This document shows positions 1,496 through 63,975 of a stretch of 64,000 nt of DNA, in pieces; the first letter of the stretch is position 1, and the number at the start of each line of letters is the position of its first letter. Origin of the DNA: an uncultured Alphaproteobacteria bacterium (GTDB lineage Bacteria > Pseudomonadota > Alphaproteobacteria > Rhizobiales > Aestuariivirgaceae). A program made the position numbers and the translations under genes. The stretch covers positions 124,001 through 188,000 of the forward strand of contig CALMWF010000008.1 in NCBI GenBank assembly GCA_937873445.1, given 5' to 3'. The notes under the pieces were generated by a model. The model was not told the DNA's origin, did not search any database, and saw only the letters and a list, made by a program, of their open reading frames with translations.

Positions 1496-2026
1496 TCAGC
1501 GGCTGCTCAGGTTTTTCAGCCAGGCCAGGGTTTTTTCATCGCTCCACTGCGCCGCCCCCGCAACGGTGGCCACATGTTCGCCCCTGCCATTCAGAATGAG
1601 TGTGGTGGGCAGGCCGGAAAGTCCCGTCACCTCTTTCAGATTTTCGCCATCGCCCACCAGCACCGGCAGATTGCTGATGCCGGTTTCGGCATAGAACTGG
1701 CGCACGCCAATCTTGCCCTTCCAGTCGAAGGCCAATGGCACCACCACAACACCGTCCGTCCTCAGCTGTTTCTGCAGCGCCGCAAGCTCCGGCATTTCCT
1801 TGCGGCAGGGCAGGCACCAGGGCGCCCACAGATTAAGCACCACCACGCGGCCGCGATAGGCCGACAGGCTGACGGACCGGTCCTCGCCATCGCGCATGGC
1901 CAGACCGTCGATGGTGCGGGCCGCAGCCATGACCATCACATCGGCGGCCGGCAGCGAAACAGCATCGGCGCGCACCGCCACCGCCAGCAGAAGTGCCGCC
2001 AGCGCCGAAGCAACCGCCCGCTTCAC
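1496..2026 (-). CDS. TlpA-like periplasmic thiol-disulfide oxidoreductase
   Basis: A 176-residue thioredoxin-fold protein with an N-terminal signal segment and the active site WCLPC (Cys71 and Cys74), followed by the KEMPEL stretch usual in TlpA/ResA proteins and the cis-Pro loop GLPTT. Such proteins keep cysteines reduced in the periplasm, often in copper-site or cytochrome c assembly. I place the start at the GTG at 2026, one base after the stop of the SCO gene; a longer frame upstream reads antisense-like sequence within SCO. Pairing with SCO resembles the TlpA/ScoI copper-centre assembly pair, in which TlpA reduces SCO. The pair is therefore likely to serve a Cu enzyme such as an oxidase or N2O reductase; the client is inferred. 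Confidence 0.85.
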   Translation of the reverse strand: MKRAVASALAALLLAVAVRADAVSLPAADVMVMAAARTIDGLAMRDGEDRSVSLSAYRGRVVVLNLWAPWCLPCRKEMPELAALQKQLRTDGVVVVPLAFDWKGKIGVRQFYAETGISNLPVLVGDGENLKEVTGLSGLPTTLILNGRGEHVATVAGAAQWSDEKTLAWLKNLSSR

Positions 2027-2027
2027 C

Positions 2028-2636
2028 TCAGGGTGCCGGATGAGCCGCCATGACCTTTGCCAGGTCTTCGGCCATCTGTTCGGCCGTTGTGCCGTAGGGG
2101 TAGCGCTTGATGAGCACGCCATCCGGCCCCACCAGTGCGATGGAGGCGGTGTGGTCCACCGTGTAGTGGGTGGGATCATCGGGGTCGGCGGGCTTGATCT
2201 CATATTTGGCATTATAGGCCTTCACCATGGCATCGGTGTAGGCCTTGGGCCCGCGCAGTGCCACAATGCGCTCATCGAACGACTGGACATATTCAGAAAG
2301 GTGCTTGGCCGTATCCCGGTCGGGATCAACGGTGACGAACAGCGGCAGCACCTTCTCGGACTTCTTGTCCTTGTCCAATGCCTTCAGGGCATTGGCCAGC
2401 ACCAGCAGGCTGGTGGGGCAGATGTCGGGGCAGTTGGTATAGCCGAAATAGATCAGCGTATAGCGCCCCTTCAGATTTTCGTCGGTCACCACCTCGCCGT
2501 TCACATCCTGCATCATGAAACGGCGTGACACAGGCGCCTCGCCGGCGTCGGCAGCGGCAGGGGCGGAATCTTCGGCACGCACACCGAGAGGCAGCATGAC
2601 CGAACAGGCAAGGGCGAGGAAATGGCGGCGCAGCAC
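2028..2636 (-). CDS. SCO1/SenC family copper chaperone
   Basis: This 202-residue protein has a signal or membrane anchor at residues 1-20 and the SCO copper site: CPDIC (Cys69, Cys73) and the distal His162 in the YTVDHTAS motif. SCO proteins bind one copper and pass it to the CuA or CuB site of oxidases, or act as a thiol reductase. The start is GTG at 2636, preceded by a good AGGAGTG ribosome site on the minus strand. It is the first gene of a two-gene minus-strand unit with the TlpA-like protein and is divergent from the BASS-family carrier. The nearby NosL gene suggests a copper-handling island. Confidence 0.93.
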   Translation of the reverse strand: MLRRHFLALACSVMLPLGVRAEDSAPAAADAGEAPVSRRFMMQDVNGEVVTDENLKGRYTLIYFGYTNCPDICPTSLLVLANALKALDKDKKSEKVLPLFVTVDPDRDTAKHLSEYVQSFDERIVALRGPKAYTDAMVKAYNAKYEIKPADPDDPTHYTVDHTASIALVGPDGVLIKRYPYGTTAEQMAEDLAKVMAAHPAP

Positions 2637-3587: not shown

Positions 3588-3780
3588 CCATCTTGTTCAA
3601 TTCGAAAATACATCATTATATCAAATTGTTATTGGAAAATTTTGAAACAGGAAAGCGGCCTGCTCCGGCTCGCCTGCGCTGTCCTGACACAGTCCCGGAA
3701 CAGGGCTTTTTCCCTAAACTCCCAACCACTGCGCGGGGCTGAAAACAGCAGGTCGCAGGGCTGTGTTTCCGTTCCCAGCA

Positions 3781-3802: not shown

Positions 3803-6520
3803 ATGAGTGGCATGGACTATGAGTATGTCAGGGTCGGGATCACTGAAATCGACGCTGATCACGCGCGCCTGATTGCCCATCTCGAGAAACTGGAAACAGC
3901 CCATGCCAGCGGCCATGCGCGCGCCGTCACCAGGCTGCTCCGTTCCTTCCTGACGGCCTTTGACCAGCACTTCGACATGGAATCGCGCATTCTGCGCGAC
4001 CAGGGCTTCCGTGATCTCGATCGCCGCCACTCCGAATTTCTCACCTCGCGTTCGTGGATCATGTCGCATCCGCTTGATGTGCGCGACGCCGAGCAGGTGG
4101 GACGGATCATTGAATTTGTCCGGGCCTGGCTGTTTGATCACATCACCCGCCAGGATGGCGCCATCGCCGAGCAGCAGATGCGCCGCGATCCGCGCCGCCG
4201 CTTCCTGCGCAGCCTGCGCCTCGCCCTCATTCCGCTGCGCTGGCGGCTGGTTCTCATCGGCGCCATTCCGCTGGCCATCATGCTGGCGCTCACCTCCATG
4301 TTCCTGTCGGGCCTGGTGGACAAATGGCGCACCGCCGCCTGGCTGCAGCATGTGGTTCGGGTTGATGAGAGCCTGGGTGATCTTGTTCAGGAACTGCAGG
4401 AGGAGGGCAACAAGGCCATCCTCGTGGTGGGCTCGCCCCATCAGGACCGGAGCTATCTCGATGCCCAGATCGTGCGCACCAACGAGAAAATCAAAGCCTT
4501 CCACGATGCCGCGGCTGCCATGCGCAGCGAGGTTCCGGATCCGGCCGTGGTGGAGGTTCTGGGCAACGCGGAAGACTCGCTGGCGCTCATCGGGCGGTCG
4601 CGCTCGGATGTTCAGACCGGTTCCTATGATGTGTTCAGCACCATTGAATATTACGAAACCATTGTTTCCGATCTGATGGCCGTTGTGCCGGCGGTGAACC
4701 GCACGCTCGATGGCTCGGTTGTCACCCGGTCAGTGAATTCCTACGGCTTTCTGCTCAAGGCGGCCGAACGCGCCGGCGCCGAACGCCTGCTCGGCACATC
4801 GCTGCTTGCCGGTGTGAAGGTCAACGTCACCACCCATGACCCCCGCTTCATCACCCAGTTTGCTACCGAGCAGGAAACCCTGGGCCGAACCTTCATGTCG
4901 CTGGCCGACAACCGCTCCGCCACGCTGTTTGAGGAAGCCATGGCCACCTCGCCCATGCTGGACAGCATGCGTGACGCCATTGTCCGCTCGGCCGATCTGC
5001 CCAGCCCGGAAAGCTGGTCCAGAACCACTGCCCTCAGGCTGGAGCGCATGCGCGCGGTTGAGCGCAATGTGGCTGCCGATATCATTGCCCAGGCCGCCGC
5101 CCTGCAACTTCAGGCCAATCAGCATGTAACCGTGGTGGGCGGCAGCGTGCTTCTGGCCCTGTTCCTGTCGCTCGCCTTCCTGTCGCTGCTGGGGCTCAGC
5201 GTGGTGCCGCCCCTGAAACGTCTCGGGCTGGCCTTGCGTCGGCTGGCCAACGGCGAAAGACTGGTTGCACTGCCTGACATTCGTGACCGTGATGACATCG
5301 GCGGGCTGGCACGTGACATTGCAGCACTCCGCGAGCGGCTCATTCAGGGCGACCTTCTGGAAGCGCGCCGCGGCACCGAAACGGCCGATCGCCTGCGCAC
5401 CACGCTCGACAGCCTGCCCGGCATTGTCTTCCGCGTGGCCCAGATGGAGGGAGCGCCCGTGCGGGTGGTCGGTGTCAGCCGCAAATTCTATCAGTTGCTC
5501 GGCCTGCGTGATCAGGACGTGGTGGACCGCAGCCTGGGCTCGGTGCTGCGCGCCTGTGTCGAGCCCGGTGACCGCCTGTCGCTGATGCACATGCTGCGCC
5601 GCATGGAGGGGGGCTCTCTCGACTTTGAATGCCGCCTGCTGCGCAAACCGGGTCAGCCGACCATCTGGGTGCGCATCCTGGCCACTCCGGTCCACACCAA
5701 CAATGGCCGCCTGTGGGACGGCGTGGCGCTGGATGTGACTGATGCCAAGCACGCCGAGATCGAGCGTCGCCGCCTGCAGGATGAATTTGATCGGCTGCGT
5801 CTGTCGCAAACCACCAAACGCATGGCCGCAGGCATTGGCAATGAACTGGCCCAGTTGTGGGGGCCCTTGCGCGCCAATGCCGAGGAATTCATCCGCTCCC
5901 TGCCGGAGGGATCACCGCTGCATGCCAAGGCGCGCGAAGTTCATGCCATTGCGCTGCGCACCGAACGGCTGGCCGCGCAGCTGGACCGCACCCTCGACCA
6001 GAGCCGTGCGGTTCAACCCATAGCCGTGGTCGATGAGCTGGCGGCGGCCTTCTCCGCCCTGCCGGCCAGCGGGCTTGGCGATGCCAGCCTTGAGTGCAGC
6101 TTCGGCGGACGGAACGCGCGGGTGTCGCATGATCCCGAGGCAATCGGCCACATGATCAGCCATCTGATGAATCACGTTTCAGAAATCGTGCGCGCCGAAG
6201 GCGGCCTGGTGTCGATAACCACCGCTGTTCGTGAATTTCATGCGCGCGAGCATCTGTCCATCACCATCACCGATGAACATGTGGCCGCCCCCGGAACACT
6301 GTCGAAGGTGCTGCAATTGAACACTATGCGCAAGGGTGCAAACCGGGGTGAAGGTTTGTCGCTGGCCATTGTCCGCGTAGTCGTTGATGGCGCGCAGGGC
6401 TTCATGCAGTCCCAGGTAACCCCCACCGGGGGCAATGTCCTCGAAATTCTGCTGCCGGTCATGACCGACCGTCCCAATAATGTCATTCGTCTGGAAAGAT
6501 CAGCCAAATGGCCGAAATGA
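3803..6520 (+). CDS. Hemerythrin-NIT-HAMP-PAS membrane sensor with degenerate histidine kinase core
   Basis: This 905-residue protein has, in order: a bacteriohemerythrin-like domain (1-125); a helix (147-170); a periplasmic domain matching the nitrate/nitrite-sensing NIT fold (about 175-435, with LVQELQEEG near 195 and FLLKAAERAGAERLL at 316-330); a second helix (443-467); HAMP (468-515); PAS (530-645); and a kinase-like region. Di-iron ligands His20, His56, Glu60, His76, His113 and Asp118 are visible, but the first His of the usual HxxxH is Leu72. The kinase core looks dead: the phospho-acceptor His is Asn680 (AAGIGNELAQLW), and the N and G boxes of the ATPase are eroded (ITDEHVAAPG, GEGLSLAIV). 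It overlaps the Crp/Fnr gene by 13 bases. I infer a sensor of O2 or NO plus nitrate/nitrite that signals without its own phosphorylation. Confidence 0.85.
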   Translation: MSGMDYEYVRVGITEIDADHARLIAHLEKLETAHASGHARAVTRLLRSFLTAFDQHFDMESRILRDQGFRDLDRRHSEFLTSRSWIMSHPLDVRDAEQVGRIIEFVRAWLFDHITRQDGAIAEQQMRRDPRRRFLRSLRLALIPLRWRLVLIGAIPLAIMLALTSMFLSGLVDKWRTAAWLQHVVRVDESLGDLVQELQEEGNKAILVVGSPHQDRSYLDAQIVRTNEKIKAFHDAAAAMRSEVPDPAVVEVLGNAEDSLALIGRSRSDVQTGSYDVFSTIEYYETIVSDLMAVVPAVNRTLDGSVVTRSVNSYGFLLKAAERAGAERLLGTSLLAGVKVNVTTHDPRFITQFATEQETLGRTFMSLADNRSATLFEEAMATSPMLDSMRDAIVRSADLPSPESWSRTTALRLERMRAVERNVAADIIAQAAALQLQANQHVTVVGGSVLLALFLSLAFLSLLGLSVVPPLKRLGLALRRLANGERLVALPDIRDRDDIGGLARDIAALRERLIQGDLLEARRGTETADRLRTTLDSLPGIVFRVAQMEGAPVRVVGVSRKFYQLLGLRDQDVVDRSLGSVLRACVEPGDRLSLMHMLRRMEGGSLDFECRLLRKPGQPTIWVRILATPVHTNNGRLWDGVALDVTDAKHAEIERRRLQDEFDRLRLSQTTKRMAAGIGNELAQLWGPLRANAEEFIRSLPEGSPLHAKAREVHAIALRTERLAAQLDRTLDQSRAVQPIAVVDELAAAFSALPASGLGDASLECSFGGRNARVSHDPEAIGHMISHLMNHVSEIVRAEGGLVSITTAVREFHAREHLSITITDEHVAAPGTLSKVLQLNTMRKGANRGEGLSLAIVRVVVDGAQGFMQSQVTPTGGNVLEILLPVMTDRPNNVIRLERSAKWPK

Positions 6521-7182
6521 AATCTGCACCCGCAGCCCCGCCGGCTGCCAAGAACGAACCTCTGGTTCAGGTCATCAGGCGGCTGTTCCCGCAGGAAAGT
6601 GCTGTCATAACGCCGCTTCGCCCGCGCTCCTATGTTTTCCACCAGGGCACGCCGGTCACATCGGTTTATCTCATTCTGCGCGGCATGATGGTGCTGGAGC
6701 GCATTGATGAAGCCGGCCGCATGGCCATGTTCGGCAATCATGGTTCTGGCTCGCTTCTGGCCTGGCAGGATTTGTTGAATGGCGGCAGCCACCGCAGCAG
6801 TTGCGAAGCCATGACCGCGTGCGAGGTGGTGGTCATCGCCGCTGAACGCTTTGAGGCGGTGCTGCGCGAAAGCGAAGCACTTCTGATGGAGCTCATGCAG
6901 CAGGCAGCCATTCAGACCAGCTCCTATGAGGAGCATATCTTCCGTCTTGCCACGCTTGATGTGCCCGACCGTGTTTATCGCACCCTGGTTCACCTGGCCG
7001 GTGACGCCAAGGGCGAGGGGGAAATGGTCGAGGTGGATACGCCGTTCCGCAAGCGTGACATTGCTGCTCTGGCTGGCACAACGCCTGAAACCCTGTCGCG
7101 CGGGCTGCGCCGCCTGTCCAAGCTGCGCATTGCCGAATTCAAGGAAAAGAACCGCTTCCGCGTCGTGCTGCGCAAGGAATGA
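6508..7182 (+). CDS. Crp/Fnr-family transcription regulator
   Basis: This 224-residue protein has a cyclic-nucleotide-type beta-roll (about 30-125), a long dimer helix (125-150) and a winged helix-turn-helix (180-203). The recognition helix TTPETLSRGLRRL has Glu194, Ser197 and Arg198, the E-x-x-S-R pattern by which FNR, Dnr and FixK read TTGA half-sites. It lacks the N-terminal cysteines of FNR, so it binds no 4Fe-4S cluster of that type; the N-terminus is Ala/Pro-rich. The ATG lies inside the end of the sensor gene (13-base overlap), which implies coupled translation and joint function. Ligand unknown; NO-heme (Dnr-like), protein contact with the sensor, or no ligand (FixK-like) are all possible. 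Confidence 0.88.
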   Translation: MAEMKSAPAAPPAAKNEPLVQVIRRLFPQESAVITPLRPRSYVFHQGTPVTSVYLILRGMMVLERIDEAGRMAMFGNHGSGSLLAWQDLLNGGSHRSSCEAMTACEVVVIAAERFEAVLRESEALLMELMQQAAIQTSSYEEHIFRLATLDVPDRVYRTLVHLAGDAKGEGEMVEVDTPFRKRDIAALAGTTPETLSRGLRRLSKLRIAEFKEKNRFRVVLRKE

Positions 7183-7216: not shown

Positions 7217-8866
7217 TCAGCGGGTGAACAACTGGTTCTGAATGACGGCTTGCGCAGGCAGCAGGGCCGGGTCAGCCGCATCGGCGCAGCGCTTCACCAC
7301 ATGGGCGAAGTAGCGGTCGTGCACATCAAGCCCCAGCCAGTCCACCAGCACCGGCGACAGGCAGTACAGCGGACGCCCCATCAGCCGGTCACGCAGGGAT
7401 GACACGTTTTCGCTGTTGGAGGAGACAATGAGCGGCACACTGTGCAGCCGCGGGTCTGTCTCCTTGCGGTAGCCCATGGTCCATTGGTGATTGCGCAGGC
7501 CCGGCAGGTGGTCACCGAAGGCCACCAGCACAAAGGGCCGCCCCCGCGCCCTCAAGGCGGCCTCGAAATTCCTGAACGAGGTTACAGCCTGTGAAAGCCG
7601 GTTGTGATAGTCGGTAATGCCGGGGTGAACCACGCCGTCAATGCGGTCAATGTTGCGGTCTTCCGCATAGGGACCGTGGGTTTCCACCGTGACAATGAAG
7701 TTAAGCTGCGGTCCGCTGGCAGTGGCAGTGCGCTCCAGCACATGGCTGTAAAGCCCCTGGTCGGTGGGCCAGCCATTGGCCTGCGTCACCAGCGTCATGT
7801 CGTCACGGCTGCTGAAACTGGCAAAGCCCATTTTCGGGTAAATCTGATTCCGCAGCCAGAACGTGGCCGTAAAATTGTGATGGGCATGAGCCGCATAGCC
7901 AAGGCCCGCAAGCAGCGATGGCAGGCTGCGCAGGCCGGGTGAGAAATAGCTCACATAGTGCTGGAACGGAATGATGCCGGACGGGAAGGATCGCATCGGC
8001 ACGCCCGTCAGCACCTCGAATTCCGCATTGGGGGTGGTGCCGCCATAGACCGGCGAGATCATGGTGCCCTCCACGGCGCCCATGTCCTTCAGAAGATTGA
8101 GCGGTGAAAAGCTGTCTGACGGATCGCGCCACCAGGCCTCGCCCAGCACCACATAAATGTCAGGCGCAGGCGTTGCGCGCGGCGCCGGCGGAGCGGCGGT
8201 GTCCAGCGCGGCCATTGCCGCGGCCACCTCATCAGGCCCATGGGTTTTCAGACGCAGCCCCGCCGTCGAGAAATAGAGATGGGTGGCAAGCCCGTTCATG
8301 CGCTCGCTTTCCGCCTGGCTGAAGGTCAGGTTCTCCACGCCGATCCACCAGGCGTTGTCGTGAATCCATGTGCTCACCCGCTCCAGCCGGTAAGTGGAAA
8401 GCAACGCCACACAGAGCACCAGGGCCGGCCCGCTCCACCAGCGCAGGCGCGTCCGCATGAGCGCATAGGCAAGGGCCGGGATGAACAGTGCTGCCACCGC
8501 CCATTGCGGCACACTCACATAGCCGGTGAGGTGTGTGCCCTGGCCGGCCAGAAAAAAGTCAGAAACCTGAAGAGGCTCGCCCGTTGCCGCCCGCTTCACC
8601 GCCGAGGCCATGCCGATGCTGAGCAGGCCAGAAGCCGTGAGCAGGGCTGCGGGCACCAGCCGCACCAGGCTTGCCACGGCGGCCACCATCACCATGGCCA
8701 CCACCATGCGTGTGGCCATGAAATGCCACCATGTCCGGCCCTGAAGATAGTCTGGCCACCACCGGCCCAGCAGGGTCAGCACCGCGAGCAGCAGCAGATA
8801 GGCAAAGCCCCATTTGACAAACCAGGACAGGCCGCGCTGAACGGCGGTGGCGGGCGGGCGCATCAT
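7217..8866 (-). CDS. Membrane sulfatase-fold transferase (LtaS/OpgB-type phosphoglycerol transferase)
   Basis: The 549-residue protein has about five N-terminal membrane helices (to roughly residue 170) and a periplasmic alkaline-phosphatase/sulfatase domain. Family motifs are clear: YGGTTPNAEFEVLTG with the nucleophile Thr, VETHGPY, and FGDHLPG with metal-binding Asp-His. LtaS/OpgB enzymes move phosphoglycerol from phosphatidylglycerol to a glycan. The ATG overlaps the opgH stop (ATGA), so it is the third gene of the opg operon and most likely decorates periplasmic glucans with phosphoglycerol. It is shorter than E. coli OpgB (over 700 residues), and OpgE-like phosphoethanolamine transfer is an alternative. 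Confidence 0.85.
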   Translation of the reverse strand: MMRPPATAVQRGLSWFVKWGFAYLLLLAVLTLLGRWWPDYLQGRTWWHFMATRMVVAMVMVAAVASLVRLVPAALLTASGLLSIGMASAVKRAATGEPLQVSDFFLAGQGTHLTGYVSVPQWAVAALFIPALAYALMRTRLRWWSGPALVLCVALLSTYRLERVSTWIHDNAWWIGVENLTFSQAESERMNGLATHLYFSTAGLRLKTHGPDEVAAAMAALDTAAPPAPRATPAPDIYVVLGEAWWRDPSDSFSPLNLLKDMGAVEGTMISPVYGGTTPNAEFEVLTGVPMRSFPSGIIPFQHYVSYFSPGLRSLPSLLAGLGYAAHAHHNFTATFWLRNQIYPKMGFASFSSRDDMTLVTQANGWPTDQGLYSHVLERTATASGPQLNFIVTVETHGPYAEDRNIDRIDGVVHPGITDYHNRLSQAVTSFRNFEAALRARGRPFVLVAFGDHLPGLRNHQWTMGYRKETDPRLHSVPLIVSSNSENVSSLRDRLMGRPLYCLSPVLVDWLGLDVHDRYFAHVVKRCADAADPALLPAQAVIQNQLFTR

Positions 8867-10704
8867 TCATGCCCATGGCTGCGGGCAGGGCGGGCGGCCT
8901 GCGCTTCGTCGGGCGTGCGGAACACGTTGCTGTCGTAAAGCTGCACACCGGCGGCAACCCTGGCTGTCCACCATGACAGCAGCGGTGCCCCCACCAGCCC
9001 GCTGATGATGGGCAGGAACCACAACAGCGTTTGCCACGAGATCAGCAGCGCCAGAACGGCAAAGGCCAGCCCCGCCGCCATATGCAGCGCATGCGGCTTC
9101 ACAAAGGCCGAGAGGGGTGCTTCGCGGCTTTCGCGGTTCTGCGCATTCCAGCCGGAATCCCGCCCCATGACGACATCAAGGACAAAGCGGGTCTGAATCA
9201 GCATCATGATGGGCGACAGCACCATGGACAGAACAGTTTCGCCCGCCACACTGCGCAACAGGCCCATGCCGCCGCCGCAGCCGCGCCGCAGGTCGGGATC
9301 ACGCCAGGCCAGAATGACGCCAAGCAGCTTGGGCAGATAAAGAACAATGCCGGTGATGATGAGCAGCCGCAAGGCCAGCACGGGATCGAACACCGGCCAG
9401 GCAGGAAACAGCGAGAAGCCATCAGGAAAATAATTGGGTTCGGTATAGCGCGCCACCATGGCCAGGGTCAGGCCCGCCAGCAGCAGCATGAGCCACAGCG
9501 GCGAGGCGAGATAGGACATGATGCCCTGAATGAGATGAACGCGGCTGATCCAGTGCAGACCCTTCGCGCCAACAATCTTCATGTGCTGAAGATTGCCCTG
9601 CGCCCAGCGCCGGTCGCGCACCGCGAGATCAAGCAGCGAGGGTGGCGTCTCCTCATAGGAACCAAGCAGATCAGGCAGCATGTAGACCGCCCAGCCCGCC
9701 CGCCGCATCAGCGCGGCCTCGATGAAGTCGTGACTGAGCACATGGCCGCCGAAGGGCTTGCGGCCGTGAAGCTCCGGCAGGCCGGCCGCCTCGGCAAAGG
9801 CCGCAACCCGGATAATGGCGTTGTGACCCCAGTAATTGCCGTCCCGGCCATGCCATGAGGCCAGACCCGCCGCCACCACTGGCCCATAGACCCGGCCGGC
9901 AAACTGCGTCATGCGCGCATAGGGCGTCCATTGATTGCGCAGATGCGGCAGAGACTGAATGATGCCGGCCGTGGCGTCGGCGGCCATGGCGCGTGCCAGT
10001 GTTGTCAGGGTCTCGGCCGTCATGTCGCTATCGGCATCCAGAACCACCATGTGGTCAAAGGCCCCGCCCCAGCGCGTGACAAAATCGGCAATATTGCCGG
10101 CCTTGCGGTGATGATTGACCGAGCGCCGGCGGTAATAGACCGGCAGCAGGCCGCCGATGCGCTGGCGGAGATCGGCAAAGGCCGTTTCCTCGCGCGCGGC
10201 CGCGTCGTCCTTGCGGGTGTCGGAAAGAATGAACAGGGCGAAGTGTGCGACCGCTCCACGTTCTGCAAGGTCGCGCACCATGCGCTCCAGCGTGGCGAAG
10301 ACGCGGGCGGGATCTTCATTGTAAATCGGCATGAGAAGGGCATTGCGCCCCATCTGGTCTGCAGCCGCCAGAACGGGTGTCCGGTGCCAGCCGGTCAGCA
10401 GCAGAAAGAAACCCAGAATGGCCGAAGCGCAGGCAAAGGAAATCCAGGTGAAGGTGAGCGCGAACAGGGCGGCAAACACCGCCTGAAGCCAGGTTACATT
10501 GACCGGGCTGATCACCTGATACATGCCATAGGTGCCAAGCGCGGTGATGATGCCGGTCATGCCGAAGACAAACAGCCGCGCCAGATTGGTGCCGTGATGA
10601 GACGCCAGGACACGAGCCCCGCCTGGCCAGTCACGCAGTGACTGCACCGGCATGGCCAGTCGGTGTTCCGGCGGTGTCAGGCCCTCGTCCAGCGGTAAAG
10701 CCAC
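8863..10704 (-). CDS. opgH: OpgH/MdoH glucan glucosyltransferase
   Basis: OpgH polymerises the beta-1,2-linked glucose backbone of osmoregulated periplasmic glucans from UDP-glucose and helps pass it across the inner membrane. The 613-residue protein has two helices at about 45-105, a family 2 glycosyltransferase domain with VVLDADSDM (Asp223-Ala-Asp225), HDFIEAALMRRAGW, and the acceptor/processivity motif DRRWAQGN (364-370), then several C-terminal helices. The E. coli enzyme is about 230 residues longer, so this is a compact version. The GTG start lies inside the end of opgG (28-base overlap) and is preceded by AAGGTGAG on the minus strand. It is followed by the sulfatase-fold gene in an ATGA overlap. 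Confidence 0.93.
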   Translation of the reverse strand: MALPLDEGLTPPEHRLAMPVQSLRDWPGGARVLASHHGTNLARLFVFGMTGIITALGTYGMYQVISPVNVTWLQAVFAALFALTFTWISFACASAILGFFLLLTGWHRTPVLAAADQMGRNALLMPIYNEDPARVFATLERMVRDLAERGAVAHFALFILSDTRKDDAAAREETAFADLRQRIGGLLPVYYRRRSVNHHRKAGNIADFVTRWGGAFDHMVVLDADSDMTAETLTTLARAMAADATAGIIQSLPHLRNQWTPYARMTQFAGRVYGPVVAAGLASWHGRDGNYWGHNAIIRVAAFAEAAGLPELHGRKPFGGHVLSHDFIEAALMRRAGWAVYMLPDLLGSYEETPPSLLDLAVRDRRWAQGNLQHMKIVGAKGLHWISRVHLIQGIMSYLASPLWLMLLLAGLTLAMVARYTEPNYFPDGFSLFPAWPVFDPVLALRLLIITGIVLYLPKLLGVILAWRDPDLRRGCGGGMGLLRSVAGETVLSMVLSPIMMLIQTRFVLDVVMGRDSGWNAQNRESREAPLSAFVKPHALHMAAGLAFAVLALLISWQTLLWFLPIISGLVGAPLLSWWTARVAAGVQLYDSNVFRTPDEAQAARPARSHGHE

Positions 10705-12248
10705 GTTTCACTCACCTTGGTTTCACCGCGCTTCAGCACTGCCCGGAGTTCTGCCAGCTCGGCTCCTTGCGCATCGTGGCGGAAGGTGAGCCGCGTGGTC
10801 TGCGCCTGGTCATTGGCATAGACCACCACATTGGAAACAACCCCGGCGCTGGCCGAGACATCGGCAGTGGCCGTCACGATGTTGTCACCGCCGGAAAACT
10901 CAACGACATAAAGGCGCAGATCAGGATTGATCTCCGGCGGATTCTTGGCGTAGTCCACATCAATGCCGGAGCCGGAGAACACCACTGTTGCGGGCTGCTT
11001 CGGAGCCACCAGCGGCCACTGCGGGCACCAGTGCAGGCGATAGACATAGGCCCGGCTTTCACCCTTCTTCAGCGGCTCCTTCGGGTGCCACAGCGCCACA
11101 ATGTTGTCGTTGGTTTCAAACTGGGTGGGGATCTCATAAAGCTCCACCGCACCCGTTGACCAATCGCCGATGGGCTCCACCCACAGGCTGGGGCGGCGCT
11201 CATATCTGGCTTCCAGATCAAGGAAATCCTCATAGCGCCGGCTGCGCTGCATCAGCCCGAAACCGCGGGGTGAAAGATCCTGAAAGGCTGAAACCTGCAG
11301 CGACTTCGGATTGGCGAGCGGCCGCCACAGCCATTCACCGGTGCCGGTGAGCATCATCAACCCGTCGGAATCATGAACCGCATTGCGATAGTCCGCCAAC
11401 GGACGATTCATCGCATTGAACAGATACATGGAGGTGAGCGGCGCAATGCCCACCTGCTCCAGGTCGCGGCGCGGATAAAGGGTCATCTCCACGTCGATCT
11501 GCGTGTCTTCGCCCGGCTTGATGGAGAAGCGGTAGGCGCCGGTTATGGACGGGCTGTCCAGCAGGGCCTCCACCACAATGACACCGGCAGGCGCTTCAGG
11601 CTTGCGCACCCAGAAGGCGCGGAAGAAGGGAAACTCCTCGCCCGTGGGCTGGCCCACGCCAATGGCCAGGCCGCGCGCCGACAGGCCATAGAGAAGCCCC
11701 TTGCCCACGGCGCGGAAATAGGACGCGCCCTGAAACACGGCCACTTCGTCAAAAATGCCCGCAGCATTGATGGGATAACGCAGCCTCAGGCCGGCATAGT
11801 GCAGATCGGTCTTGCCGTCCGGCACCTTCACATCGGCGCCGAAGACAAACAGGCTGGGATCGTAGTTGAGCCGCGCCTGCTGGCCTGCCTCCACCACATG
11901 GATGTCCACCGGCCGGGTGAACAGAAAGCCGGGATGAAAAAGATCGAAGGAGAAGCCATGCGCCTCTCCCTTCCAGATGGACCGGTCGGGGTTGAAGCGG
12001 ATGTTGCGGTATTGGTCATAGGTAAGCTTGTCGAGCCCCTCCGGCAGGGCCAATGTCTCATCCTTGAAGGGTTTGCCGGAAAGTTCCTTGGCCAGTGTGC
12101 GCACGTAGTCGTCGGGAAATTCCGTGGGCTTGCCGGTGAGCAGGGGGGCGGCGTCAGCCAGTGCCGGCAGCGTTCCCTGCCGGATGAGAACGGCCAGTGC
12201 CGCCAGGCGCGTGGCTGCGTGCAGAAGGTGTCGGCGATTGAGGGTCAT
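10677..12248 (-). CDS. opgG: OpgG/MdoG periplasmic glucan biosynthesis protein
   Basis: OpgG/OpgD proteins act in the periplasm on the nascent beta-1,2 glucan; members of this family are now known as glucan hydrolases or transglycosidases. The 523-residue protein starts at the ATG at 12248, giving an export signal whose NRRHLLHAA head resembles a twin-arginine motif, so it may use the Tat path like OpgD. The mature part shows family stretches such as LTYDQYRNIRFNPDRSIW near residue 75 and FLDLEARYERRPSLWVEP in the second half. A longer upstream frame exists but lacks a signal peptide at its start. It is the first gene of the opgG-opgH-transferase operon. Confidence 0.92.
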   Translation of the reverse strand: MTLNRRHLLHAATRLAALAVLIRQGTLPALADAAPLLTGKPTEFPDDYVRTLAKELSGKPFKDETLALPEGLDKLTYDQYRNIRFNPDRSIWKGEAHGFSFDLFHPGFLFTRPVDIHVVEAGQQARLNYDPSLFVFGADVKVPDGKTDLHYAGLRLRYPINAAGIFDEVAVFQGASYFRAVGKGLLYGLSARGLAIGVGQPTGEEFPFFRAFWVRKPEAPAGVIVVEALLDSPSITGAYRFSIKPGEDTQIDVEMTLYPRRDLEQVGIAPLTSMYLFNAMNRPLADYRNAVHDSDGLMMLTGTGEWLWRPLANPKSLQVSAFQDLSPRGFGLMQRSRRYEDFLDLEARYERRPSLWVEPIGDWSTGAVELYEIPTQFETNDNIVALWHPKEPLKKGESRAYVYRLHWCPQWPLVAPKQPATVVFSGSGIDVDYAKNPPEINPDLRLYVVEFSGGDNIVTATADVSASAGVVSNVVVYANDQAQTTRLTFRHDAQGAELAELRAVLKRGETKVSETWLYRWTRA

Positions 12249-12738
12249 GGTCCTGAGGGGCCGGTCTTGCGGCAGTGCAACATTTGGTCGTCCCGTTATG
12301 ATTTGTAAAGTGGCGAGTTTGTGACCGAACGCAATGAATTCACCGGGTTTTCTGCAGGTGATCGAAGGTTCTGCGACAACGCAACGGTGGGTGGTGCAGC
12401 CGGGCGGATGCGCATCCCCCCTGTCAGTGCCCACCGCCCCTGCCAGCCGCCCTAGAGGGGCGGCGCGGACATGAACTGGGATAGCCAATAACCTATACGT
12501 GAACTAGCGGCATTAAAAGTGAGGTGAAAAGCCTCACCGGAAACACAAGGTCAGCAGTCAGCGGCCAGAACACCCCGCCTCATTTCGCACGTGCAGCAAA
12601 ATAGCCCATGCTTTATGAGAGTTTTTGCATTTCTTCATGAGCGGATTCGTTTTGGTCGCTTGAAGAGATCCCATTGACATCATTTCCCATCGTGTTTACG
12701 TACACGTCAACATAAGGTCATAATCGGGAGGGTGCGCC
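12249..12738. other. 490-base divergent intergenic region between opgG and the beta-oxidation operon
   Basis: No convincing gene is seen here. It must hold the opg promoter (minus strand) and the SCP2-fadD promoter (plus strand). A small stem (GTGAGG at 12519-12524 with CCTCAC at 12532-12537, loop of seven) lies in the middle; its role is unknown. The MerR-type operator at 12694-12711 is listed separately. The right half is more AT-rich than the flanking genes. Confidence 0.6.
12674..12711 (+). promoter_or_regulatory. Promoter with MerR-type palindromic operator before the fatty-acid operon
   Basis: A consensus -35 hexamer TTGACA (12674-12679) is followed after 17 bases by TACGTA (12697-12702), a weak -10. 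The imperfect palindrome GTTTACGTACACGTCAAC (12694-12711; 14 of 18 bases symmetric) covers that -10 position. It closely resembles the TTTACGT..ACGTAAA operators described for LiuR-type MerR regulators of acyl-CoA catabolism. A MerR gene lies in the operon this promoter would drive, so autoregulation is likely. The first gene (GTG at 12739) starts 27 bases downstream. Confidence 0.65.
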
Positions 12739-63961: not shown

Positions 63962-63975
63962 TTGATTTATGTCAA
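63962..63975 (+). promoter_or_regulatory. FNR/FixK-type box near the right edge
   Basis: TTGATTTATGTCAA matches the FNR-family consensus TTGAT-N4-ATCAA with one change (TTGAT-N4-GTCAA). It lies in AT-rich DNA (63880-64000) with no gene, so it most likely controls a gene beyond the window, on either strand. The Crp/Fnr regulator at 6508-7182 has the E-x-x-S-R recognition helix suited to such sites. Confidence 0.7.

Follow-up and report, generated by a model that had tools for sequence, protein, structure and literature searches.

The closest described systems to the gene pair considered here include two built on soluble proteins, NifL, whose gene directly precedes nifA, and PipX, a small soluble adaptor of cyanobacteria. 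According to excerpts of two studies, the kinase-like domains of NifL perform no phosphotransfer; under oxygen they retain NifA by means of the DHp/GHKL core, and in Azotobacter vinelandii and other species a kinase-like core thereby binds a transcription activator directly in response to oxygen or redox state (PMC12998174, PMC3466315). PipX is described, in part of a review, as raising the activity of the CRP-family regulator NtcA when bound to it, and the reviewers regarded similar protein partners for other CRP-family proteins as conceivable (PMC6243067). DivL and other pseudo-histidine kinases have a nonhistidine residue at the phospho-acceptor site and, in the excerpt available, function without kinase activity (PMC4211667). 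Here we describe a pair of overlapping genes encoding a sensor pseudokinase and a Crp/Fnr-family regulator in a 64,000-nt stretch of an uncultured alphaproteobacterial genome (GCA_937873445.1, contig CALMWF010000008.1, positions 124,001 to 188,000), referred to below, at its full length, as the window. From the sequences we consider it somewhat probable that the dead sensor controls the Crp/Fnr protein by direct binding, in a phosphorylation-free, NifL-like pathway.

The likeness to NifL lies in a histidine kinase-like core that has lost catalytic residues and is encoded next to its predicted partner. NifL senses by an FAD-PAS domain and, in the parts of the literature consulted, its inhibition depends on nucleotide status (PMC12998174, PMC3466315), whereas the present sensor, predicted to cross the membrane twice, combines a hemerythrin with a NIT domain, and its nucleotide boxes are altered. 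The partners differ as well, a sigma-54 activator (NifA) in one case and a Crp/Fnr-family protein in the other; the sensor may work like NifL but is no NifL. With NtcA-PipX it would share a CRP-family regulator under the control of a protein partner, but PipX is neither a membrane sensor nor a kinase relative, and it activates. The first-pass annotation of this DNA had stated that no pathway of this form was described; NifL-NifA is one, and what is new is the Crp/Fnr partner and the sensor pair. No description of the sensor-Crp/Fnr pair was found in the titles and opening lines of abstracts of the open-access literature, which is weak evidence.

Conserved pairing of the sensor and regulator genes

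The order of domains in the window sensor is hemerythrin, transmembrane segment, NIT, transmembrane segment, HAMP, PAS, and HisKA/HATPase-like core (Table 1). Its 3' end and the start of the Crp/Fnr gene share 13 nt, or 4 nt if a second ATG at 6517 is used, and these are overlapping reading frames rather than a fusion protein. The architecture and the overlap agree with the first-pass annotation, both open reading frames (ORFs) lying where it had placed them and profiles supporting the domains.

In total, seven distinct full-length sensors were found in six genomes, all within one order. In a sample of relatives, 41 of 100 genomes had some match (E <= 0.001), and full-length sensors were confined to the window's own genome (G000), G014, and G085 (two). 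A named genome collection yielded seven loci, six of them full length; the seventh, a partial match of 99 residues (L041), was excluded. At E <= 1e-22, the sensor search of an order-wide sample returned 8/397 genomes, of which six had full-length sensors and two (G073 and G120) had NIT-HAMP matches at 23 to 24% that were set aside from the count. At E <= 1e-60 in a class-wide sample, the window's own genome was the single hit among 385. Within the family of Pinisolibacter the sensor was present in 4 of 15 genomes, and plasmids and viral contigs contained no sensor relative at the limits used. The named carriers are Pinisolibacter aquiterrae B13, which has two copies, and metagenome-assembled genomes (MAGs) of Siculibacillus, Hyphomicrobiales, Phyllobacteriaceae, and an uncultured alphaproteobacterium.

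At all seven full-length loci, the next gene begins before the sensor frame has ended and encodes a member of one Crp/Fnr subfamily; the overlap measures 13 nt at the window locus and 22 nt at the other six. A search with the subfamily profile, counted at E <= 1e-30 with weaker Crp-like genes left out, detected eight genes in 6/397 genomes, the same six that carry the sensor. Linkage to the Crp/Fnr gene, the lack of which the first-pass annotation had named as one of three refuting outcomes, is thus strict in the genomes sampled. The chance that two random six-genome sets coincide is 1.9e-13, with kinship between genomes ignored. P. aquiterrae has two complete sensor-regulator pairs, and the divergence of sensors and regulators is matched (r = 0.96 over 21 nonindependent pairs). 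The eighth subfamily gene (G370:C428, L063 10392-11371) lies behind a frame of approximately 60 residues that by eye resembles the C-terminal end of the sensor, and may represent a regulator whose sensor has been lost.

Flanks of 1 to 12 kb, some ending with the contig, were compared using frames of at least 110 codons. Among the seven loci, all interlocus frame matches (E <= 1e-8) fell on or overlapped the sensor or regulator, and no other shared neighbor was found; the flanking genes include those for DnaB, pyruvate kinase, and an MFS transporter. Since only the sensor and regulator are common to these flanks, no common partner gene is linked to them, and because the flanking genes are not shared, the pair appears to form a separate unit. 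Ahead of the regulator start, a purine-rich stretch falls within codons of the sensor tail, suggesting that conservation of this tail may be partly due to a ribosome-binding site.

The kinase-like core and the regulator

Of the two kinase profiles named by the first-pass annotation for the core, HATPase_c was matched in the window sensor just over the Pfam cut-off (E = 2.9e-6), whereas HisKA had no Pfam match in the window sensor and reached E = 0.42 at best, in one of the seven homologs. A profile of the seven sensors nevertheless aligned the entire core with the solved structures of CckA (5idj, E = 1.5e-13) and ZraS (9jfj, E = 4.3e-12), supporting a DHp/CA fold. In the alignment to these structures, the phospho-acceptor position is occupied by N, S, T, G, G, S, and N and never by His, confirming the Asn reported for the window. 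In place of the N-box Asn, the window sensor has His and the other six have Tyr; one position ahead of this site the window sensor has an Asn, against S, G, A, or T in the homologs. None of the seven retains the G1 glycines (DDGPG has become DEHVA or DDRxx). The G2 box, GTGLGL in CckA, is GEGLSL in the window, with two glycines kept, and G(E/D)(E/D)LSL in the other six. The earlier description of eroded ATP boxes consequently fits the N-box and G1 but overstates the change in the G2 box of the window. The pseudokinase argument stands although G2 is only altered, because it is carried by the His site, the N-box, and G1, and the residues present at these sites strongly suggest that the core has no enzyme activity.

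All seven sensors have lost these catalytic residues, so a sequencing variant of one gene, another of the refuting outcomes named by the first-pass annotation, is not the explanation. Mean identity among the sensors is 0.63 for the HisKA-like region and 0.58 for the HATPase-like region, compared with 0.61 for NIT and 0.69 for hemerythrin. In the comparison of the two P. aquiterrae copies, nonsynonymous divergence (dN) is well below synonymous divergence (dS) in all domains (HisKA-like, dN 0.109 and dS 0.69; HATPase-like, dN 0.089 and dS 0.57), indicating that the core is under purifying selection and kept as a protein. Ordinary kinases close to the core, for which frames were recovered at 4/9 loci, had the His and G1 boxes intact in 4/4 and the N-box pattern in 3/4, and a distant Crp-like gene was present at one of the nine loci (L016, E = 7.6e-8).

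The regulator has both Crp domains (PF00027, E = 1.2e-15; PF13545, E = 1.5e-10). No invariant Cys was found among the seven aligned regulators, in agreement with the first-pass reading of a Crp/Fnr protein without the FNR cysteines. CRP contacts cAMP through E72, R82, T127, and S128. Only R82 is retained of these four, as Arg96; the positions of E72, T127, and S128 are W86, Y140, and E141, and all of these residues are invariant in the seven. The recognition helix, PETLSR, has what we take to be the E--SR pattern of FNR-type proteins and would presumably read TTGA-type half sites. The best regulator model, with a mean predicted local distance difference test (pLDDT) score of 78.5, matches CRP proteins; the other four models scored 53 to 69.

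Input domains, promoter elements, and gene neighborhood

The N-terminal domain belongs to the hemerythrin family by profile. With a cut-off of 25.3 bits, PF01814 scored 25.1 in the protein search and 29.4, over the cut-off, in a genome scan of the same stretch; TIGR02481 scored 52.1 bits against 51.75. PF01814 matches (E <= 10; best, 4.3e-7) were obtained in all seven sensors. Residues H20, H56, E60, H76, E78, H113, and D118 are invariant and form the pattern H-HxxxE-HxE-HxxxxD. The canonical bacteriohemerythrin set, H-HxxxE-HxxxH-HxxxxD, does not apply, as HxxxH is absent from all seven sensors; a damaged HxxxH site was considered and rejected in favor of the better-fitting HxE variant. In the part of a review available to us, this variant is the motif that replaces HxxxH in the hemerythrin-like domains of P1B-5-ATPases (Acidothermus and Sinorhizobium meliloti), and whether these domains sense oxygen, redox, or iron was left undecided (PMC9388753); the same doubt applies, by analogy, to the present sensor. 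In the ATPases the domain is C-terminal on a metal pump, whereas here it is N-terminal on a sensor. The di-iron hemerythrin of the first-pass annotation thus stands as a family assignment, with a di-iron site plausible from the conserved ligands, but with the HxE variant in place of the canonical set. Input from O2, NO, or redox state would enter through this domain.

The NIT fold is supported by PF08376 in the window sensor, by the match of the seven-sensor profile to NasR (4akk, E = 9e-9), and by NasR as fold match 42 of the sensor model. In excerpts of the literature, a nitrate motif, G-x-x-R, is described in nitrate-sensing kinases, NasR having Gln for one Gly and both arginines (PMC8199190), and E175 and R176 are the NasR residues given (PMC7496416). 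In helix 5 the sensors keep this motif as GxER (residues 325-328 in the window), as do five of six chemoreceptor-like relatives (L005, L007, L008, L010, and L012, but not L023; L004, L006, L009, and L011 were left out of the comparison). These NIT-HAMP relatives, at ~25% identity, were considered as kinases, but this identity was rejected, all six looking by eye like chemoreceptors. NasR and 6/6 of the chemoreceptor-like relatives have an Arg in helix 1, at a position taken by Gly or Ala in 7/7 sensors (Gly202 in the window). Because this nitrate-type Arg is lost throughout, sensing of nitrate or nitrite by the altered domain is doubtful, and we read the loss as a change of NIT ligand; of the nitrate/nitrite input proposed earlier, the fold and the helix-5 motif hold.

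HAMP was below the cut-off in the window sensor (PF00672, E = 0.012) and matched best among the seven at 1.7e-5. Given hydrophobic segments at residues 150 and 450 and an Arg-rich stretch preceding the first, the hemerythrin-like domain is predicted to be cytoplasmic and the NIT domain to lie outside the membrane. The fold matches of the sensor model (LOV-kinases, phytochromes, NasR, and, at rank 26, the NifL-NifA complex 9qq6) fit the assigned domains and prove nothing further, and the 9qq6 match is no proof of kinship, as it reflects the general PAS-kinase fold.

A 19-bp element with the consensus CTGCGCTGWTCSGACACAG and partial dyad symmetry (CTGYG-N9-CRCAG) was found upstream of all seven sensor genes (the window, L035, L036, L037, L038, L039, and L040), 129 to 170 nt from the assigned starts and with 0 to 3 mismatches. 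The window site, CTGCGCTGTCCTGACACAG, is the sole place in the window with 3 or fewer mismatches. The best 17-mer of the window promoter had 18 mismatches summed across the other six promoters, whereas 17-mers as a whole averaged 39. Shuffled promoters matched at 4 or fewer mismatches in 5/2,100 cases, a test that is partly circular since the consensus was derived from the same promoters. Across the six genomes, all 5 sites with 0 or 1 mismatch and 6 of the 8 sites with up to 2 mismatches were ahead of sensor genes (reversed control, 5 hits at up to 2 mismatches); at 3 mismatches, 28 sites were found versus 21 control hits, and these weaker sites therefore carry no meaning. The element looks like a putative private operator of the sensor operon. 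An FNR-like box, TTGAYnTGnRTCACGGC, begins 36 nt after the start of the element in five of the seven promoters, those of the window and G014 being the exceptions; at 1 or fewer mismatches it had 14 matches, 5 of them ahead of sensor genes, and 0 in controls. Its presence in five promoters suggests that the operon is controlled by itself or by another FNR-type protein. Separately, the window has a sole zero-mismatch fit to TTGAYNNNNRTCAA at 63962-63975 (TTGATTTATGTCAA), and 7 sites at 1 or fewer mismatches versus 3.58 expected.

Table 1. Coordinates of the sensor-regulator locus in the window
Feature	Position	Strand	Basis
19-bp conserved upstream element CTGCGCTGTCCTGACACAG	3674..3692	+	129 nt ahead of sensor start; family consensus CTGCGCTGWTCSGACACAG
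Sensor pseudokinase gene	3803..6520	+	905 aa; ORF and profile matches
Hemerythrin-like domain, residues 8-123	3824..4171	+	TIGR02481 over cut-off; ligand residues invariant 7/7
First transmembrane segment, residues 150-168	4250..4306	+	Hydropathy
NIT domain, residues 193-427	4379..5083	+	PF08376, E = 6.7e-27; alignments to NasR 4akk and NIT chemoreceptor-like relatives
Second transmembrane segment, residues 450-468	5150..5206	+	Hydropathy
HAMP domain, residues 468-514	5204..5344	+	PF00672
PAS domain, residues 554-647	5462..5743	+	PF13426 (PAS_9), E = 2.6e-7
HisKA-like helices, residues 654-735, Asn680 at phospho-acceptor position	5762..6007	+	Alignment to CckA 5idj and ZraS 9jfj
HATPase_c-like domain, residues 777-886	6131..6460	+	PF02518, E = 2.9e-6; box residues
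Crp/Fnr-family regulator, recognition helix PETLSR	6508..7182	+	224 aa; PF00027, PF13545, alignment of seven regulators

In the window the pair sits after nosL/nosY-like genes, an SCO1 gene, and a transporter gene. At 105-1495 of the window and in L031, NosL-like (weak, below the cut-off) and NosY-like genes mark where a nos cluster ends; NosZ- and NosD-type genes lie upstream, and an NnrS gene stands beside another Crp/Fnr gene. An SCO1/SenC gene and a redoxin-type gene (1496-2636, minus strand) lie between the nos genes and the transporter. A link to nitrous oxide was considered and rejected, as the nosL/nosY-like, SCO1, and transporter frames match no frame at the other six loci, several flanks of which are truncated by contig ends. 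Five of the six carrier genomes had long NosZ-like matches (E <= 1e-80), none over the curated cut-off, and NnrS was over its cut-off in 6/6; because these counts cover carrier genomes only, no association with NosZ or NnrS is claimed. On the other side (7217-12488, minus strand), sulfatase-type, glycosyltransferase, and MdoG genes stand in a row, as for osmoregulated periplasmic glucans.

Proposed mechanism and alternatives

We propose that the two genes would form a self-contained signaling unit without phosphorylation. The sensor would be a membrane protein, assumed to be a dimer from its HisKA-like helices, whose dead kinase core has been retained as a binding module. The predicted cytoplasmic, putatively di-iron hemerythrin-like domain and the altered periplasmic NIT domain would set the conformation of the HAMP and PAS domains and of this module. 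In one state, the module would bind the cotranslated Crp/Fnr protein directly, most likely preventing its access to DNA much as NifL restrains NifA; in the alternative state, it would release the regulator to act at FNR-type sites, perhaps including its own promoter. As to the sign of control, we give sequestration rather than activation less weight than direct binding itself. A contact mechanism is the simplest because the sensor lacks catalytic residues and is linked to a single regulator gene, the one neighbor that the loci share. Several points weigh against this reading. Contact between the two proteins is a prediction, seven sequences being too few for coevolution analysis, and plain coregulation would also yield conserved linkage and overlap. 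The sensor family is rare (seven sensors, six genomes, one order; 1/385 genomes in the class), and the model of the window sensor has low confidence (mean pLDDT, 65.3; predicted template modeling score, 0.37). All seven sensors retain the acidic residue that follows the His position as well as the G1 Asp, and the window sensor also keeps two G2 glycines, so weak nucleotide binding is possible; likewise, the invariant Arg96, the equivalent of CRP Arg82 in the phosphate-binding cassette, means that the regulator itself might have a small ligand.

This last point leads to an explanation in which the regulator answers its own small ligand and the sensor shares the operon for a common physiology, without the two proteins touching. 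Besides Arg96, Trp86 in the pocket region is invariant, and CRP-family proteins with other ligands exist, the c-di-GMP-responsive CLP (3iwz) being among the fold matches of the regulator. Such an arrangement would, however, leave the sensor without a known output, and the one-to-one pairing, both P. aquiterrae copies included, exceeds ordinary operon sharing; we consider it unlikely. Slightly less likely still is that the dead sensor forms mixed dimers with a normal histidine kinase encoded elsewhere, and acts on it in this way, or binds a response regulator, the Crp/Fnr gene being merely coexpressed. DivL and a ChrS variant act through other two-component proteins, according to parts of the respective reports (PMC4211667, PMC9491836), and in the window's genome a further frame shows 24% identity across residues 442-886. 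Under a heterodimer model, one would not expect the pair alone to be common to the flanks of the seven loci, nor 8/8 subfamily Crp/Fnr genes in 397 genomes to lie behind a sensor or an apparent remnant. DivL, moreover, is described as binding a response regulator and retaining its N, G1, F, and G2 boxes (PMC4211667), whereas the N, G1, and G2 boxes are changed in the sensor family.

That the kinase remains active by an unusual route, such as phosphorylation of another residue, would fit the recognizable HATPase fold, the retained acidic residues, and the only partly changed G2 box of the window, but we regard it as very improbable given Gly at the His position in 2/7 sensors and the loss of the N-box Asn and G1 glycines from all seven. 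A decaying gene or an assembly error could account for several catalytic sites being altered together; it is already refuted by seven full-length frames without internal stops and by the excess of dS over dN in each domain of the two P. aquiterrae copies. Of these explanations we favor direct binding of the regulator by the sensor. Whether the latter would be the first known dead histidine kinase to act from the membrane as the protein ligand for a Crp/Fnr regulator, forming a transmembrane "one-and-a-half-component" system that joins internal di-iron O2/NO/redox signals with external signals from the altered NIT domain and relays them by direct contact, we judge to be evenly balanced.

The presence of two complete pairs in a named strain, P. 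aquiterrae B13, makes the proposal testable. If it is true, Crp/Fnr proteins, which are usually regarded as one-component switches whose ligand or cluster is built in, can be subordinated to a membrane sensor with no phosphate chemistry involved, and the NifL-like repurposing of histidine kinases would also have occurred with an unrelated regulator class. It would likewise bear on the question, raised in the available part of the NtcA-PipX review, of protein partners for other members of the CRP family (PMC6243067).

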